DNA from: Acidimicrobiaceae bacterium
GTDB lineage: Bacteria; Actinomycetota; Acidimicrobiia; Acidimicrobiales; RAAP-2
Assembly (NCBI GenBank): GCA_027315005.1
Contig: DAHUZT010000088.1
Location: 1 to 64,000 of the forward strand
Length of the DNA: 64,000 bases
Reading direction: 5' to 3'
Part shown: positions 43,274 to 48,942 of the stretch, in pieces
Layout of the letters: each line of letters opens with the position of its first letter
Numbering within the stretch: position 1 is the stretch's first letter
Translations under genes and position numbers: made by a program
The notes under the pieces: model-generated
The model's database searches: none
Seen by the model: only the letters and a program-made list of their open reading frames with translations
What the model was told of the DNA's origin: nothing

Positions 43274-44115
43274 GCGCTACCTCACCGGTGACGACAGCGC
43301 CCACGTCCCAGGCCGCCGGCACCGGTGCCTCCCCCGGAGACCTGTCGGTGCGCGGGGTACTGGCCTCGGAATGGACGAAGCTGCGGTCCGTCCGGTCGAC
43401 CGTGTGGAGCCTGGCAGCCTTGGCCGTGGTGACCATCGGGCTCGGTGCCTTGGTCAGCGCGGTGACCAACAATCGGTGGCGAACCTTCTCGTTCGCCGAC
43501 CGGCTGACCTTCGACCCGACGAGCCGGAGCCTCCGTGGAGTCTTCCTCGCCCAGTTGGCCATCGGGGTCCTCGGCATCCTGGTCATCACCAGCGAGTACG
43601 GCACCGGCATGATCCGTTCCACCCTGAGCGCCGTACCCAACCGCCCTCTGGTCCTGGCGGCCAAGGCCATCGTCTTCGGGCTGGTGGCTCTGGTGGTGAG
43701 CGAGGCGGTGACGTTCGTCGCCTTCCTGGTGGGACAGTCCCTCTTCACCAGTCCCGTCCCGCACGCCACCTTGGGACAGCCCGGCGTGCTGCGGGCGGTG
43801 GTCGGCAGCGGTCTCTACCTAGCCGTCCTCGGGCTGCTGGCCCTGGGCATCGGATCGCTGATCCGGCACACCGCAGGCGCCATCAGCACGTTCGTCGGGC
43901 TGCTGCTGATCCTGCCGCTGCTGCTGCAGGCCTTTCCCACCTCGGTGCAGACGGCACTCGGCAAGTACCTTCCCCTGACGATCATCCAGGCCATGATCAG
44001 GGTGCAGCCCACCCCGAAGGCCTTCGCCCCGTGGGCCGGACTGGCCTTGCTCGGTGGTTACACGCTGGTGGTGCTGCTCGCGGCCGGAGTCCTGTTCGTC
44101 AAGCGGGACGCGTGA
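43270..44115 (+). CDS. ABC transporter permease
   Basis: VRGVLASEWTKLRSVRSTVWSLAALAVVTIGLGALVSAV...ITSEYGTGMIRSTLSAVPNRPLVLAAKAIVFGLVAL. Confidence 0.92.
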   Translation: MSATSPVTTAPTSQAAGTGASPGDLSVRGVLASEWTKLRSVRSTVWSLAALAVVTIGLGALVSAVTNNRWRTFSFADRLTFDPTSRSLRGVFLAQLAIGVLGILVITSEYGTGMIRSTLSAVPNRPLVLAAKAIVFGLVALVVSEAVTFVAFLVGQSLFTSPVPHATLGQPGVLRAVVGSGLYLAVLGLLALGIGSLIRHTAGAISTFVGLLLILPLLLQAFPTSVQTALGKYLPLTIIQAMIRVQPTPKAFAPWAGLALLGGYTLVVLLAAGVLFVKRDA

Positions 44116-44972
44116 CCCTCGACGACAATTCCGATCAGGTCCACTTCTGGAACGAGCTGGCAGGTCCCCTCTGGGTGGCGCACCAGAACGAAACGGACCG
44201 TCTGACCGGACCCTTCGGCGAACAGGCCATCGAGCGGGCTCAACCGGTCGATGGCGACCAGGTGCTCGACGTCGGATGCGGTTGCGGCTCGACCACCCGA
44301 GTGCTCGCCGCGGCGGTCGCCCCTTCGGGGCGCGCGATCGGAGTCGACGTGAGCCGGGTGATGCTCGAGCAGGCTCGTCACAGTGCCGCTGCGGCTGGGC
44401 TCACCAACCTCGAATTCATCGAGGGCGACGCCCAGTGCGACCCGTTCGGCAACGATCGGTTCGATCTCGTGTTCTCGCGGTTCGGCACGATGTTCTTCGC
44501 CGATCCCGTTGCCGCCTTCTTCAACCTGGGGGCCTCGTTGCGTCCCGGCGGCCGTTTGACCTTCGTCTGCTGGCGCGAACCCGCTCTGAACCCTTGGATG
44601 ACCGTTCCGGAACGTGCTGCACTCCGCTTTTTCGAGCTCGATCCGCCGGGAGCGGCCCAGGGGCCGGGTCCATTCGCGCTGAGCGCTCACGACCACGTAG
44701 CCGGCCTCTTGCGGGCCGCCGGGCTCGCCGAAGTCGAGCTGGTCACGGTAGCCAGAGAGGTGCTGGTGGTCGAGGGGTCAGAGGGCCCCGATCTCCACCG
44801 ATGGGCGCATCACCGTTTGGTAGCGGGGCCGGCTCGGGTCCGCTACCTCGAAAGCCCCACCGACGTTCAGGCACGAGCACGGGCGGACCTCATCGAAGCC
44901 GTGTCCGTTCACCGATCCGATGACGGGGTCCGCATGCCCGGTGCCGCCTGGTTGGTCAGCGCCCGCCGTTGA
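44112..44972 (+). CDS. Class I SAM-dependent methyltransferase
   Basis: GDQVLDVGCGCGSTTRVLAAAVAPSGRAIGVDVSRVMLEQAR...DRFDLVFSRFGTMFFADPVAAFFNLGASLRPGGRLTFVCWRE; GTG start overlaps the permease stop. Confidence 0.9.
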   Translation: MTLDDNSDQVHFWNELAGPLWVAHQNETDRLTGPFGEQAIERAQPVDGDQVLDVGCGCGSTTRVLAAAVAPSGRAIGVDVSRVMLEQARHSAAAAGLTNLEFIEGDAQCDPFGNDRFDLVFSRFGTMFFADPVAAFFNLGASLRPGGRLTFVCWREPALNPWMTVPERAALRFFELDPPGAAQGPGPFALSAHDHVAGLLRAAGLAEVELVTVAREVLVVEGSEGPDLHRWAHHRLVAGPARVRYLESPTDVQARARADLIEAVSVHRSDDGVRMPGAAWLVSARR

Positions 44973-45290: not shown

Positions 45291-46148
45291 TCAGTGCGCC
45301 AGGCGGGCCAGTGCCAAGCTCACGGCGAGGGCCACCGTCATCCAGGAGAGTGAGCGGAGCGCCCGTTCCATGGGAGCGAGTATGACCGCGCGGTCGAGGG
45401 TCTCGACGGTGCCATCGCGCCGCTCGATGCGGCCTTCGACAGACTCCACCTGGCGGCGGATGGTACGGGCCGGCGTGGAGAGAGTGCGCTGGGCCGAGGC
45501 GAGCAGTCCCACCGCGCCGGCGAGCACTATGGCCGAGAAGGGCAACGAGCCGTCCTGAGCGAACGCGGCGGTCAGCACGGGGAACGCCCCCCACCCCAGG
45601 GCGAAGCCCAGGTCGGTGTGGACCCTCCCCCCGAACAGCTCGAGGTTGTAGGCCACCACGAGCAGCGACCCGACGACGACGAACACCACCAACCACGGGC
45701 CCAGTCGTTCCACACCCACGATGCCGATGGCAACGGCCCCGAGCAGTCCGAGTACTGCCCATGACCCGAGGAGCCCCGAAGACAGCTCGGTACCGAGCGG
45801 TCGTCCCTGTAGCTCGTCGAGGGCATGGGCCGAAACGCCCACCGCCAGGAAGAACGCGGCCACCGTGGCACCCAGCGTGCTCCAGTCGACCTTCGGACCG
45901 ATGAGCGATCCGATCACGACCGTCGACAGGAGCCAGGCCGTGTAGGGGGGGTGGAGCACCGCCCGGATGTCCCGCCAGATGCCGGGCCCACCGGAGGCGT
46001 AGTAGGCGGGCCCGAGCTCACGGTGCTCGTGCCCAGAGGCCTGGTCGTGCATAAGACCCTCGTCCCGGTCGTCGCTCCCCGACACCGGGTCGTTTCGCCG
46101 ATCCTCCCCGTGGATCCGGTCCCTATCCATGCCGCCATCAGGGGCCAC
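45291..46148 (-). CDS. UbiA-like polytopic membrane protein (start uncertain; MHDQASG... start at 46052 possible)
   Basis: LHPPYTAWLLSTVVIGSLIGPKVDW...AFFLAVGVSAHALDELQGRPLG...VVAYNLELFGGRVHTDLGFALGWGAFPVL; multi-TM. Confidence 0.65.
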   Translation of the reverse strand: MAPDGGMDRDRIHGEDRRNDPVSGSDDRDEGLMHDQASGHEHRELGPAYYASGGPGIWRDIRAVLHPPYTAWLLSTVVIGSLIGPKVDWSTLGATVAAFFLAVGVSAHALDELQGRPLGTELSSGLLGSWAVLGLLGAVAIGIVGVERLGPWLVVFVVVGSLLVVAYNLELFGGRVHTDLGFALGWGAFPVLTAAFAQDGSLPFSAIVLAGAVGLLASAQRTLSTPARTIRRQVESVEGRIERRDGTVETLDRAVILAPMERALRSLSWMTVALAVSLALARLAH

Positions 46149-46872
46149 CGGACTTGGTCCCCCACATGACCATTCCGCCGCCGAGTGACATCAACCGGGT
46201 CTCGACGTCCTGCATGCCGGAGCGGCGCCAGGCTTCCACCGTCCAGTCGAGCGGATAGTCCCGATAGTGACCGGAGATGCTCGGACCGAGGAAGCGTCCC
46301 ACCTCGAACCATTCCCGGCCACCGGTCATCCACCCGGCGACCGGGAGGACCATCCGGGTGTACCCCCACCAAAGGGTTCGCCAGTAGGGTGACGGAGGGA
46401 CGTGGAACTCGAGGTTGGCGAGGGTCCCGCCCGGCCGGAGCACCCGGACCAGCTCGCTGACGGCAGCAGCCGGATCGGCCACGTAACGGAGCAGGTAGGT
46501 GAACGTGACCGCGTCGAACACCCCGTCCTCGAAGGGAAGCTCCTCCCCCCGGCCCCGAACCAGCGTGATCCCGTGCTCGCCGCGAGCCGAGAGGTTGTCC
46601 CGAGCTAGCAGCAACATGGGCCAGGTCAGGTCGAGCCCCACCACCCGCGCGCCGGTCGCGGCCCGAAGGGCGGAGGCCACCCCTCCCGGACCGGTCGCCA
46701 CGTCCAAGATCCGGCTGGTGCCACTCGACGGTATCCGGCCGACCATCGTCCGGCGCCACCGCCGGTCCTGTCCCAACGAGAGCACGGCTCCCAGCTGGTC
46801 GTAGCGAGCGGGGAGTCCGTCGAAGAGATCCACCGCCTGTCGGTTGGGAGCTGTGTCGAGCCGTCCTCCCAC
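46138..46872 (-). CDS. UbiE/MenG-like methyltransferase
   Basis: LFDGLPARYDQLGAVLSLGQDRRWRRTMVGRI...ILDVATGPGGVASALRAATGARVVGLDLTWPMLLLAR...VTFTYLLRYVADPAAAVSELVRVLRPGGTLANLEF. Confidence 0.88.
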   Translation of the reverse strand: MGGRLDTAPNRQAVDLFDGLPARYDQLGAVLSLGQDRRWRRTMVGRIPSSGTSRILDVATGPGGVASALRAATGARVVGLDLTWPMLLLARDNLSARGEHGITLVRGRGEELPFEDGVFDAVTFTYLLRYVADPAAAVSELVRVLRPGGTLANLEFHVPPSPYWRTLWWGYTRMVLPVAGWMTGGREWFEVGRFLGPSISGHYRDYPLDWTVEAWRRSGMQDVETRLMSLGGGMVMWGTKSGGP

Positions 46873-47020
46873 CCGGCCCAGCGTAGGCCAGGTCGATCGC
46901 CCGGGGAGCAAGCCGGCGTCCGCCGCCGACCGGCAGAGCGGCGACGGGCCGGGGGATGGGAGCTGCGGCTGGCAATGCCCCGGTGACACCGGCCAGCCAC
47001 CGAGGGCGTAGAACGGGTAC

Positions 47021-48376
47021 ATGCGAAACCGCGACCTGCGGGTCGATGTGGCCGTGGTGGGCTCGGGCCCCGGTGGCAGCGTGGCTGCTTGTCAGCTGGC
47101 CCGTGCCGGGGTTGAGGTGGCGCTGGTGGACAAGGCCAGGTTCCCCCGGGACAAGGCCTGCGGCGATCTGATCGGACCGCGCGGCATCGAGCTTCTCGAC
47201 CGGATCGGACCGGGGCTGGACGATTTCCTCCCGCTCGGTGACATGGCCGTGATCGGGCCCCGGGGCGGCACCGTTGTCCTTCCCGCGGTAGCGGGCCGGG
47301 ACTTCGGCGGTGCGGCATGGGCCCTTCCCCGGCGTCAGCTCGACGCAACCCTTCACAAGAGCGCCGCGGACTCGGGCGCCGAGATCGTGAACGACAGGGT
47401 GGTGGGCGTCGAGATCGTCGGTGCCACGAGCGGTCGCGGCGCTGGCGGCGGTGTCGGGACTGCTGGTAGCGCACCGGGAACGGGTGCCGTCGTTCACTTG
47501 GACGGCGGGGGTTCGCTGTCCGCCCGGACAGTGATCGGTGCCGACGGTGCCACGAGCGTCGTCGCCGCCTCCGCCGGCATGGTCCGAACCGACCGGGTCC
47601 TCTGGGGATTTGCCGTCCGCACCTACCTGCATGCCGAGGTGGAGTTGCCGTCCATCGTGCTCTTCGATCGGCAACCGGGAATCGCCTTCCCGGGCTATGG
47701 CTGGATCTTCCCGGGCCCGGACGGCATGGCCAACGTCGGTGTGGGGGCGGCGACCGGATGCGATCGGCGGGCGGGAAGCATCGCTGCCCGGCAGCTCGAC
47801 AGCTTCCTCCGGCTGCTCACGACCCTCGATCTGATCGACGGCTCCGAACTCGGTGGGCGGCGTCTGGGCGGTTGGCTGAAGATGGGCATGATGGGAACCA
47901 CGCCGGTCGCTGGACCGGTGTTGCTCATCGGTGATGCCGCGGGCCTGGTCAACCCCCTCCAGGGCGAAGGGATCGCCCAGGCGATGATGAGCGGAGAGGC
48001 CGCTGCCTCGGCGGTGCTCACGTCCTGCGGGCCTGGCGCGGGACGGCTCTACGGTCGTTGGCTCGCCCGGCATCAGAGCGGCTACCAGGGCTCGACCGCC
48101 GTAGTCCAGAACCTCCTGCGGCAACGCCCGAAGGCCACGTCCAGGTTGGCCCGCGCGCTCACCTGGCCCCCGGTCGGCAAGCGGCTGGCGCCGGCGTGGG
48201 CCCTCTACTGGAACGATCTGGTGATGGGCGGGCCGCCCGGTGCCGCTCGGCAAGCAGCCTGGCTGGTGAGTGGAGCGATCCGGGCGGGAACGGCTGGATC
48301 GGGCGATCGTCGTAGCCTGGCCCGCCGGCTGGTCGAGCCACCGAACGACCCGACCACCTCTCCAACTCGACGATGA
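47021..48376 (+). CDS. Geranylgeranyl reductase family FAD-dependent oxidoreductase
   Basis: VDVAVVGSGPGGSVAACQLARAGVEVALVDKARFPRDKACGDLIGPRGIELLDRIG...GYGWIFPGPDGMANVGVGA...LLIGDAAGLVNPLQGEGIAQAMMSGEAAA. Confidence 0.93.
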   Translation: MRNRDLRVDVAVVGSGPGGSVAACQLARAGVEVALVDKARFPRDKACGDLIGPRGIELLDRIGPGLDDFLPLGDMAVIGPRGGTVVLPAVAGRDFGGAAWALPRRQLDATLHKSAADSGAEIVNDRVVGVEIVGATSGRGAGGGVGTAGSAPGTGAVVHLDGGGSLSARTVIGADGATSVVAASAGMVRTDRVLWGFAVRTYLHAEVELPSIVLFDRQPGIAFPGYGWIFPGPDGMANVGVGAATGCDRRAGSIAARQLDSFLRLLTTLDLIDGSELGGRRLGGWLKMGMMGTTPVAGPVLLIGDAAGLVNPLQGEGIAQAMMSGEAAASAVLTSCGPGAGRLYGRWLARHQSGYQGSTAVVQNLLRQRPKATSRLARALTWPPVGKRLAPAWALYWNDLVMGGPPGAARQAAWLVSGAIRAGTAGSGDRRSLARRLVEPPNDPTTSPTRR

Positions 48377-48942
48377 GCCCTCAGGTCCGGCGCGCCGCCT
48401 CGCCGATGAGAACGCGTCGACCGGTGGCACTGGATGCCGTCCTCTACCGCGCTTCTGCCATAGGCGAACACTCCCTGTGTTGGATCGGCCTCGCCGGTGC
48501 CACGGCGATGCGAGGTCCCGGGCGCCGCAGGGTCGCAGCGCGGGCCTTGGTCGGCCTGCTCGCCGAGGAGCTGATCGTCAACGAGGTGCTGAAGCCGGTG
48601 TTCGGCCGGACCCGACCGGCGCAGCGGTCCGAACATCCCCATTGGTTCCGGCAACCCACCGACGCCAGCTTCCCCAGTGGACATGCGGCTGCCGCCTTCT
48701 GCACGAGCGTGCTGCTCTCCGATCATGACCGCGCGCTCGCCCCGGCCTACTTCGTGCTGGCTACCACCATCGCGGTGAGCCGATGGTACGTCGGGGCCCA
48801 TCACCTTTCGGACGTGGGTGCCGGCGTGCTGGTGGGAACCGCCATCGGTGTCTGCGTCCGAAGCTTGTGGCCAGTGGCGTCCGTGGACCCGAGTGACCGT
48901 GGACCCGAGAAGGTATCAGCCCCTCAGCTACTCGGGGAATAG
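48373..48942 (+). CDS. PAP2-family phosphatase
   Basis: VFGRTRPAQRSEHPHWFRQPTDASFPSGHAAAAFCTSVLL...VSRWYVGAHHLSDVGAGVLVGTAIG; PAP2 signature (KxxxxxxRP / PSGH / SRxxxxxHxxxD). Confidence 0.93.
   Translation: MSPQVRRAASPMRTRRPVALDAVLYRASAIGEHSLCWIGLAGATAMRGPGRRRVAARALVGLLAEELIVNEVLKPVFGRTRPAQRSEHPHWFRQPTDASFPSGHAAAAFCTSVLLSDHDRALAPAYFVLATTIAVSRWYVGAHHLSDVGAGVLVGTAIGVCVRSLWPVASVDPSDRGPEKVSAPQLLGE

Follow-up and report, generated by a model that had tools for sequence, protein, structure and literature searches.

The stretch of DNA analysed here, referred to below as the window, comprises 64,000 nucleotides (positions 1 to 64,000 of contig DAHUZT010000088.1) from an Acidimicrobiaceae bacterium (assembly GCA_027315005.1). 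We examined four adjacent genes in it, which encode a UbiA-fold membrane protein (UL), a UbiE-type S-adenosylmethionine (SAM) methyltransferase (UE), a geranylgeranyl-reductase-family flavoprotein (GR) and a PAP2-superfamily phosphatase (P2), and which an earlier note on this DNA had read as a group for isoprenoid chemistry (Table 1). All four open reading frames (ORFs) lie where that note had placed them. UE and UL overlap by 11 nt, taking the first candidate UL start, and are probably translationally coupled in the window, while GR and P2 overlap by 4 nt and are likely co-transcribed. Since homology begins there, the coding start of UE is probably the GTG at 46872, and with this start the gap between the divergently oriented UE and GR is ~148 bp. 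No sigma-70 consensus and no Rfam match were found in this region in the two scans made of it.

Table 1. Features of the window and START-like genes close to UE-UL in related loci (locus label before the colon).
Feature	Position	Strand	Remarks
UL, UbiA-fold membrane protein	45291-46148	-	285 aa ORF
UE, UbiE-type SAM methyltransferase	ORF 46138-47022; likely coding part 46138-46872	-	ORF 294 aa; PF01209
UE-GR divergent intergenic region	46873-47020	none	sigma-70 and Rfam scans negative
GR, geranylgeranyl-reductase-family flavoprotein	47021-48376	+	451 aa; TIGR02032
P2, PAP2-superfamily phosphatase	48373-48942	+	189 aa; PF01569
START-like gene near UE-UL	L035:6566-7030		
START-like gene near UE-UL	L036:4912-5385		
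START-like gene near UE-UL	L233:6716-7195		
START-like gene near UE-UL	L236:6818-7279		
START-like gene near UE-UL	L237:8836-9300		
START-like gene near UE-UL	L239:7686-8126		
START-like gene near UE-UL	L267:2059-2523		

Sequence models say little about UL. The window protein has no match at E<1 in Pfam or NCBIfam, and no curated NCBIfam model names its family. We assembled the UL family from 71 named genome contigs (loci) and from whole-genome searches. Of 61 family members, 17 give weak matches to the UbiA model PF01040 (best 1.1e-5), the three UL loci recovered by the genome search stay at 21-27 bits, under the gathering cut-off of 34.2, and a sequence search of the PDB with the UL profile returned chance matches only. 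The AlphaFold (AF2) model of UL, by contrast, is confident, with a predicted local distance difference test (pLDDT) score of 94.5 and a predicted template modelling (pTM) score of 0.90. When it was compared with the PDB using Foldseek, the top 11 matches, each with a probability of 1.00, were all enzymes of the UbiA superfamily, and ranks 12-14 were likewise prenyltransferase or UbiA-fold entries (best E 2.1e-3; template modelling score by query 0.40-0.56). Alignment of the UL profile by hhalign to 30 canonical UbiA proteins from the window genome and related genomes gave a probability of 95.4 and an E-value of 1.8e-8. Because of the confident model, the UbiA-type PDB matches and the hhalign result, UL is a genuine, very divergent UbiA-superfamily protein by descent, and its earlier description as a UbiA-like membrane protein holds.

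The active site has been replaced. UbiA-family enzymes carry the motifs NDxxDxxxD, DxxxD and YxxxK (PMC6461227). We counted conservation over 123 distinct UL proteins, using the residue numbers of the window UL ORF. At the position of the first motif these homologues have A-H-x-x-D-E-x-x-G-R-P, with only D111 in register, and at the second Q-R-x-L-S-T-P-x-R-x-x-R-R; DxxxD occurs in the second-motif region of none of the 123. The tyrosine of YxxxK (Tyr167) is kept in all of them and its lysine position is Leu or hydrophobic. H108, D111, Y167, E170, H177, S224, R231 and R232 are invariant (123/123), E112 is kept in 122, and Q220 and R228, near the former second motif, are near-invariant. The resulting constellation, H-x-x-D / Y-x-x-E-x6-H / S-x6-R-R, reads H108-x2-D111-E112, Y167-x2-E170-x6-H177 and Q220-R221-x2-S224-x3-R228-x2-R231-R232 in the window protein. 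In the DSSP assignment of the model the invariant residues fall at the ends of long helices two, four and six, as in UbiA, and on the same face as the UbiA active site. UL therefore resembles the UbiA prenyltransferases (AfUbiA, 4tq3; ApUbiA, 4od4; UBIAD1, 8djk; MenA) in fold, helix order, the cap position of its conserved residues, the tyrosine of YxxxK and the register of D111, but differs from them by AHxxDExxGRP, QRxLSTPxRxxRR, the lost lysine and a constant methyltransferase partner. With both Asp-rich motifs gone, classical Mg-diphosphate prenyl transfer by UL is, judging from these motifs, unlikely; the earlier note had itself named such a loss among the findings that would count against its inference, and a prenyltransferase step is not supported. 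The natural reading is that the site is functional but re-tooled, a pattern from which we infer catalysis. At position 73 the window UL has Leu, where 116 of the 123 homologues have His.

UE scores 113 bits against the UbiE/COQ5 model PF01209 (cut-off 20.1), in agreement with its earlier naming as a UbiE-type methyltransferase. It shares with UbiE, MenG and Coq5 full-length homology, the SAM motifs, R179 and the LEF-type and LP..G segments, but it belongs to a separate clade (split support from MenG 97/97 in the tree) in which N, Y, Y and P residues that never vary in MenG are changed, including N to Y at 180, Y to G at 242 and P to G at 246. The window UE lies below the curated MenG/UbiE score (TIGR01934, 127.9 vs 158.35 bits) and also fails to reach the equivalog cut-offs, and among the UEs of 18 UL-positive genomes only one is just above the TIGR01934 cut-off (160.1). 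Literature searches in the library used here returned no relevant UbiA-UbiE pair and no relevant UbiA family without the Asp motifs; UL is new as a UbiA-fold variant, and UE as a clade of the UbiE family.

The two genes travel together. Two of the 71 loci (L065 and L104) are cut by the contig end, and in all 69 loci with enough flanking DNA a UE homologue adjoins UL. In 67 of these UE precedes UL on one strand; the order is reversed in L069 and the genes are convergent in L103. A start codon for UL that overlaps the stop of UE is available in 53 of 68 loci. An association this regular, with UE adjoining UL wherever a related locus extends far enough to hold it, is beyond chance. Carriers are found in several classes of Actinomycetota, including the isolate Nocardioides ungokensis LMG 28591 (L044), in Chloroflexota, and in one metagenome-assembled genome (MAG) each from Dormibacterota, proteobacteria and archaea. 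In the archaeal MAG the pair lies beside TFS and PTH2 genes (L082:6723-11528), an arrangement suggestive of inter-domain transfer of the cassette. We hold with high confidence that UE-UL exists as a module, a portable two-gene cassette. Genes for proline dehydrogenase, XseA and glycerate kinase recur next to it in Thermoleophilia and were set aside, as they look like shared chromosomal context and not function. A second UbiE-like methyltransferase gene follows UL in some loci (L037:5228-5656, L054:8770-9189, L258:8450-9025).

The earlier note had seen no men genes. This is correct for the window and incorrect for the genome, in which one contig (C24) carries menB, menA and menD above cut-off together with menE- and menH-like genes, while MenG is encoded on C124, CtaB on C72 and a MenJ-like reductase (286 bits) beside nuo genes on C8. 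Thus, absence of these genes from the window is uninformative. Canonical UbiA-family proteins were found in 18 of 18 UL-positive genomes tested, and a separate MenG above its curated cut-off in 17 of the 18. The idea that UE-UL replaces a missing MenA or MenG was rejected, given that canonical copies coexist with it; the pair adds to a normal menaquinone pathway and is no substitute for it.

GR passes the geranylgeranyl reductase family model TIGR02032 (182 vs 158.8 bits), as the earlier assignment to this family would lead one to expect. This family includes MenJ, which reduces the menaquinone tail, ChlP and the archaeal digeranylgeranylglycerophospholipid (DGGGPL) reductase. GR shares with them the CGD, PGYGWxFP and GDAAGxxNPxxGEGI motifs, the latter two as PGYGWIFP and GDAAGLVNPLQGEGI, but by curated cut-offs it is none of them (134 vs 700 bits for the MenJ equivalog), and forms a lineage-specific group tied to UE-UL. 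It is the divergently oriented neighbour of UE-UL in 10 genomes, namely the window and L035, L073 (= L226), L197, L224, L232, L233 (truncated), L235, L236 and L237, in which the GR proteins are only 45-52% identical to that of the window. We surveyed 296 genomes of the window's class. The UL model was matched in 31, two of them by weak or fragmentary matches only. GR orthologues above 600 bits occur in nine of the 296, all UL-positive and one unlinked (G309). Cytochrome P450 genes recur near UE-UL-GR (L224:3928-5142, L226:1255-2607 and L236:7349-8539), with L224 and L226 from one genus.

A START-like (Polyketide_cyc2) protein shows a similar distribution. START proteins are known for Coq10-like roles. 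The gene lies near several UE-UL loci (Table 1), and matches of at least 208 bits were found in 12 of the 296 class genomes, all UL-positive and several unlinked, after which scores drop to 134 bits; close orthologues thus occur in this class only where UL does. The window genome lacks it. If relatedness is ignored, the random-draw probabilities of the co-occurrence with UL are 5e-10 for GR and 2e-13 for the START-like protein. The class survey also bears on a mis-binned window contig. A first sample of the phylum gave 37 UL matches with no class member beyond the window genome, which counts toward mis-binning; this explanation is not favoured, as the 31 class genomes that match the UL model include members of the window's family.

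The phosphatase is a different case. P2 scores 72.6 bits against PF01569 (cut-off 27.2) and keeps the three catalytic motifs K-x6-RP / PSGH / SR-x5-H-x3-D (as KPVFGRTRP, PSGH and SRWYVGAHHLSD), so that its identification as a PAP2 phosphatase is sound. Its membership of an isoprenoid group is not: tblastn found no match to P2 near UE-UL in related loci, and a PAP2 gene as a conserved part of the module was rejected on this result. A clustered PAP2 gene is present only in L233, where it is a different gene from P2.

We favour, at a probability of roughly 45%, a mechanism in which UE-UL, with GR where present, is an accessory module for C-methylation and tail reduction of an isoprenoid or quinone-like membrane lipid. 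In the order of reactions that we infer, the helical bundle of UL would hold a polyprenyl-linked substrate in the membrane. The new cluster of His/Asp/Glu and Arg residues, which in the model sits on the UbiA active-site helix ends and takes the place of the pair of Mg-diphosphate Asp motifs, would serve UL to bind or activate the substrate's head group at the cytosolic cap. UE, which would be translated together with UL, would use SAM to methylate the substrate, most likely on carbon in the manner of UbiE and MenG. GR, expressed divergently from the same gap, would then reduce isoprenoid double bonds in the window's lineage, and the probable role of the START-like protein in related genomes is to carry or shield the product. 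Isoprenoid chemistry, as first proposed, thus stays plausible from the fold of UL, the types of UE and GR, and the linkage of GR by position and occurrence, without the prenyltransferase step and without PAP2.

Several observations weigh against this mechanism. Below the nine close GR orthologues, the next tier (304-456 bits) consists of four UL-negative genomes, all from a single family (f3), followed by unrelated paralogues near 210 bits; because these four carry a related GR, enzymes of this type can act without the cassette. Outside the class, 18 UL-positive genomes tested have no close GR relatives, and tail reduction is therefore not part of the core function; a START-like match exceeding 150 bits is present in only one of the 18. 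Since these relatives are mostly missing outside the class, UE and UL make up the core, and GR and the START-like protein are additions of the window's lineage. Shared ancestry makes the co-occurrence probabilities look more extreme than they truly are. The Foldseek E-values for UL are modest, and UL could be a non-catalytic scaffold. In that last form, UL would be an anchor or a quinone- or polyprenol-binding subunit for UE, like the Coq scaffolds, with polar residues that bind head groups and no reacting donor. Strict pairing, overlapping genes and the loss of the catalytic motifs are what such a subunit would show; the H/D/E/R residues that stay invariant at the catalytic cap are more than an anchor would be expected to need, and we regard this explanation as unlikely.

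The same invariant residues allow for other chemistry. UL may be a UbiA-fold enzyme for a reaction other than diphosphate-dependent prenyl transfer. Jointly with UE it may make a methylated isoprenoid or quinone, as yet undescribed, in members of Actinomycetota and Chloroflexota and in some archaea, in which case the His-Asp-Glu/Glu-His cluster is possibly a metal site, complemented by the double arginine; we give this alternative tentative but appreciable credence. More doubtful is a reading in which UL has remained a prenyltransferase, or works as some different group transferase with a diphosphate donor, and binds the donor through the Arg cluster and a single metal held by His/Asp/Glu, with UE methylating a prenylated aromatic in a second prenylquinone route. 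The UbiA fold and profile, D111 and Tyr167 in register, and the arginines and Q220 near the former second motif fit this, and a re-tooled UbiA fold has a precedent in Rv3806c, a decaprenyl-phosphate phosphoribosyltransferase that handles pyrophosphate through a single Mg and a cluster of K/R residues (PMC10994848). Rv3806c, however, keeps Asn73/Asp77 of motif 1, unlike UL, and the window genome has a separate homologue of it (on C97); UL has lost NDxxDxxxD, DxxxD and the lysine of YxxxK, and no aromatic-precursor genes were recognised beside UE-UL in the inspected loci. Finally, the four genes could be mere neighbours, UE-UL as one unit and GR-P2 as another, with no common pathway here. PAP2 is not conserved, most UE-UL pairs have no adjacent GR, and GR and UE lie on opposite strands. 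Against this, GR keeps its divergent position in 10 genomes despite its low identity, and its close orthologues are confined to UL-positive genomes, once even when unlinked, so that simple adjacency appears quite improbable.

A UbiA-fold protein that has exchanged the prenyltransferase motifs for an equally strict new set, and that is almost always found beside its own UE, points to an unrecognised modification of a lipid or quinone. The carriers of UE-UL are abundant, mostly uncultured soil bacteria. Automatic pipelines would label the pair as menaquinone genes or leave it unnamed, which affects pathway reconstruction. Since the pair is present in one complete isolate genome, the prediction is directly testable.

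Two further observations concern neighbouring genes. Of the four UL-negative genomes with GR-like genes (L266:6609-7898, L263, L264 and L265), three have P-type ATPase-like genes close to the reductase gene. In the window, positions 44112-44972 encode a further SAM methyltransferase domain (PF13649, with PF01209 weaker) beside ABC-2 transporter genes, which resembles UE in the core only.

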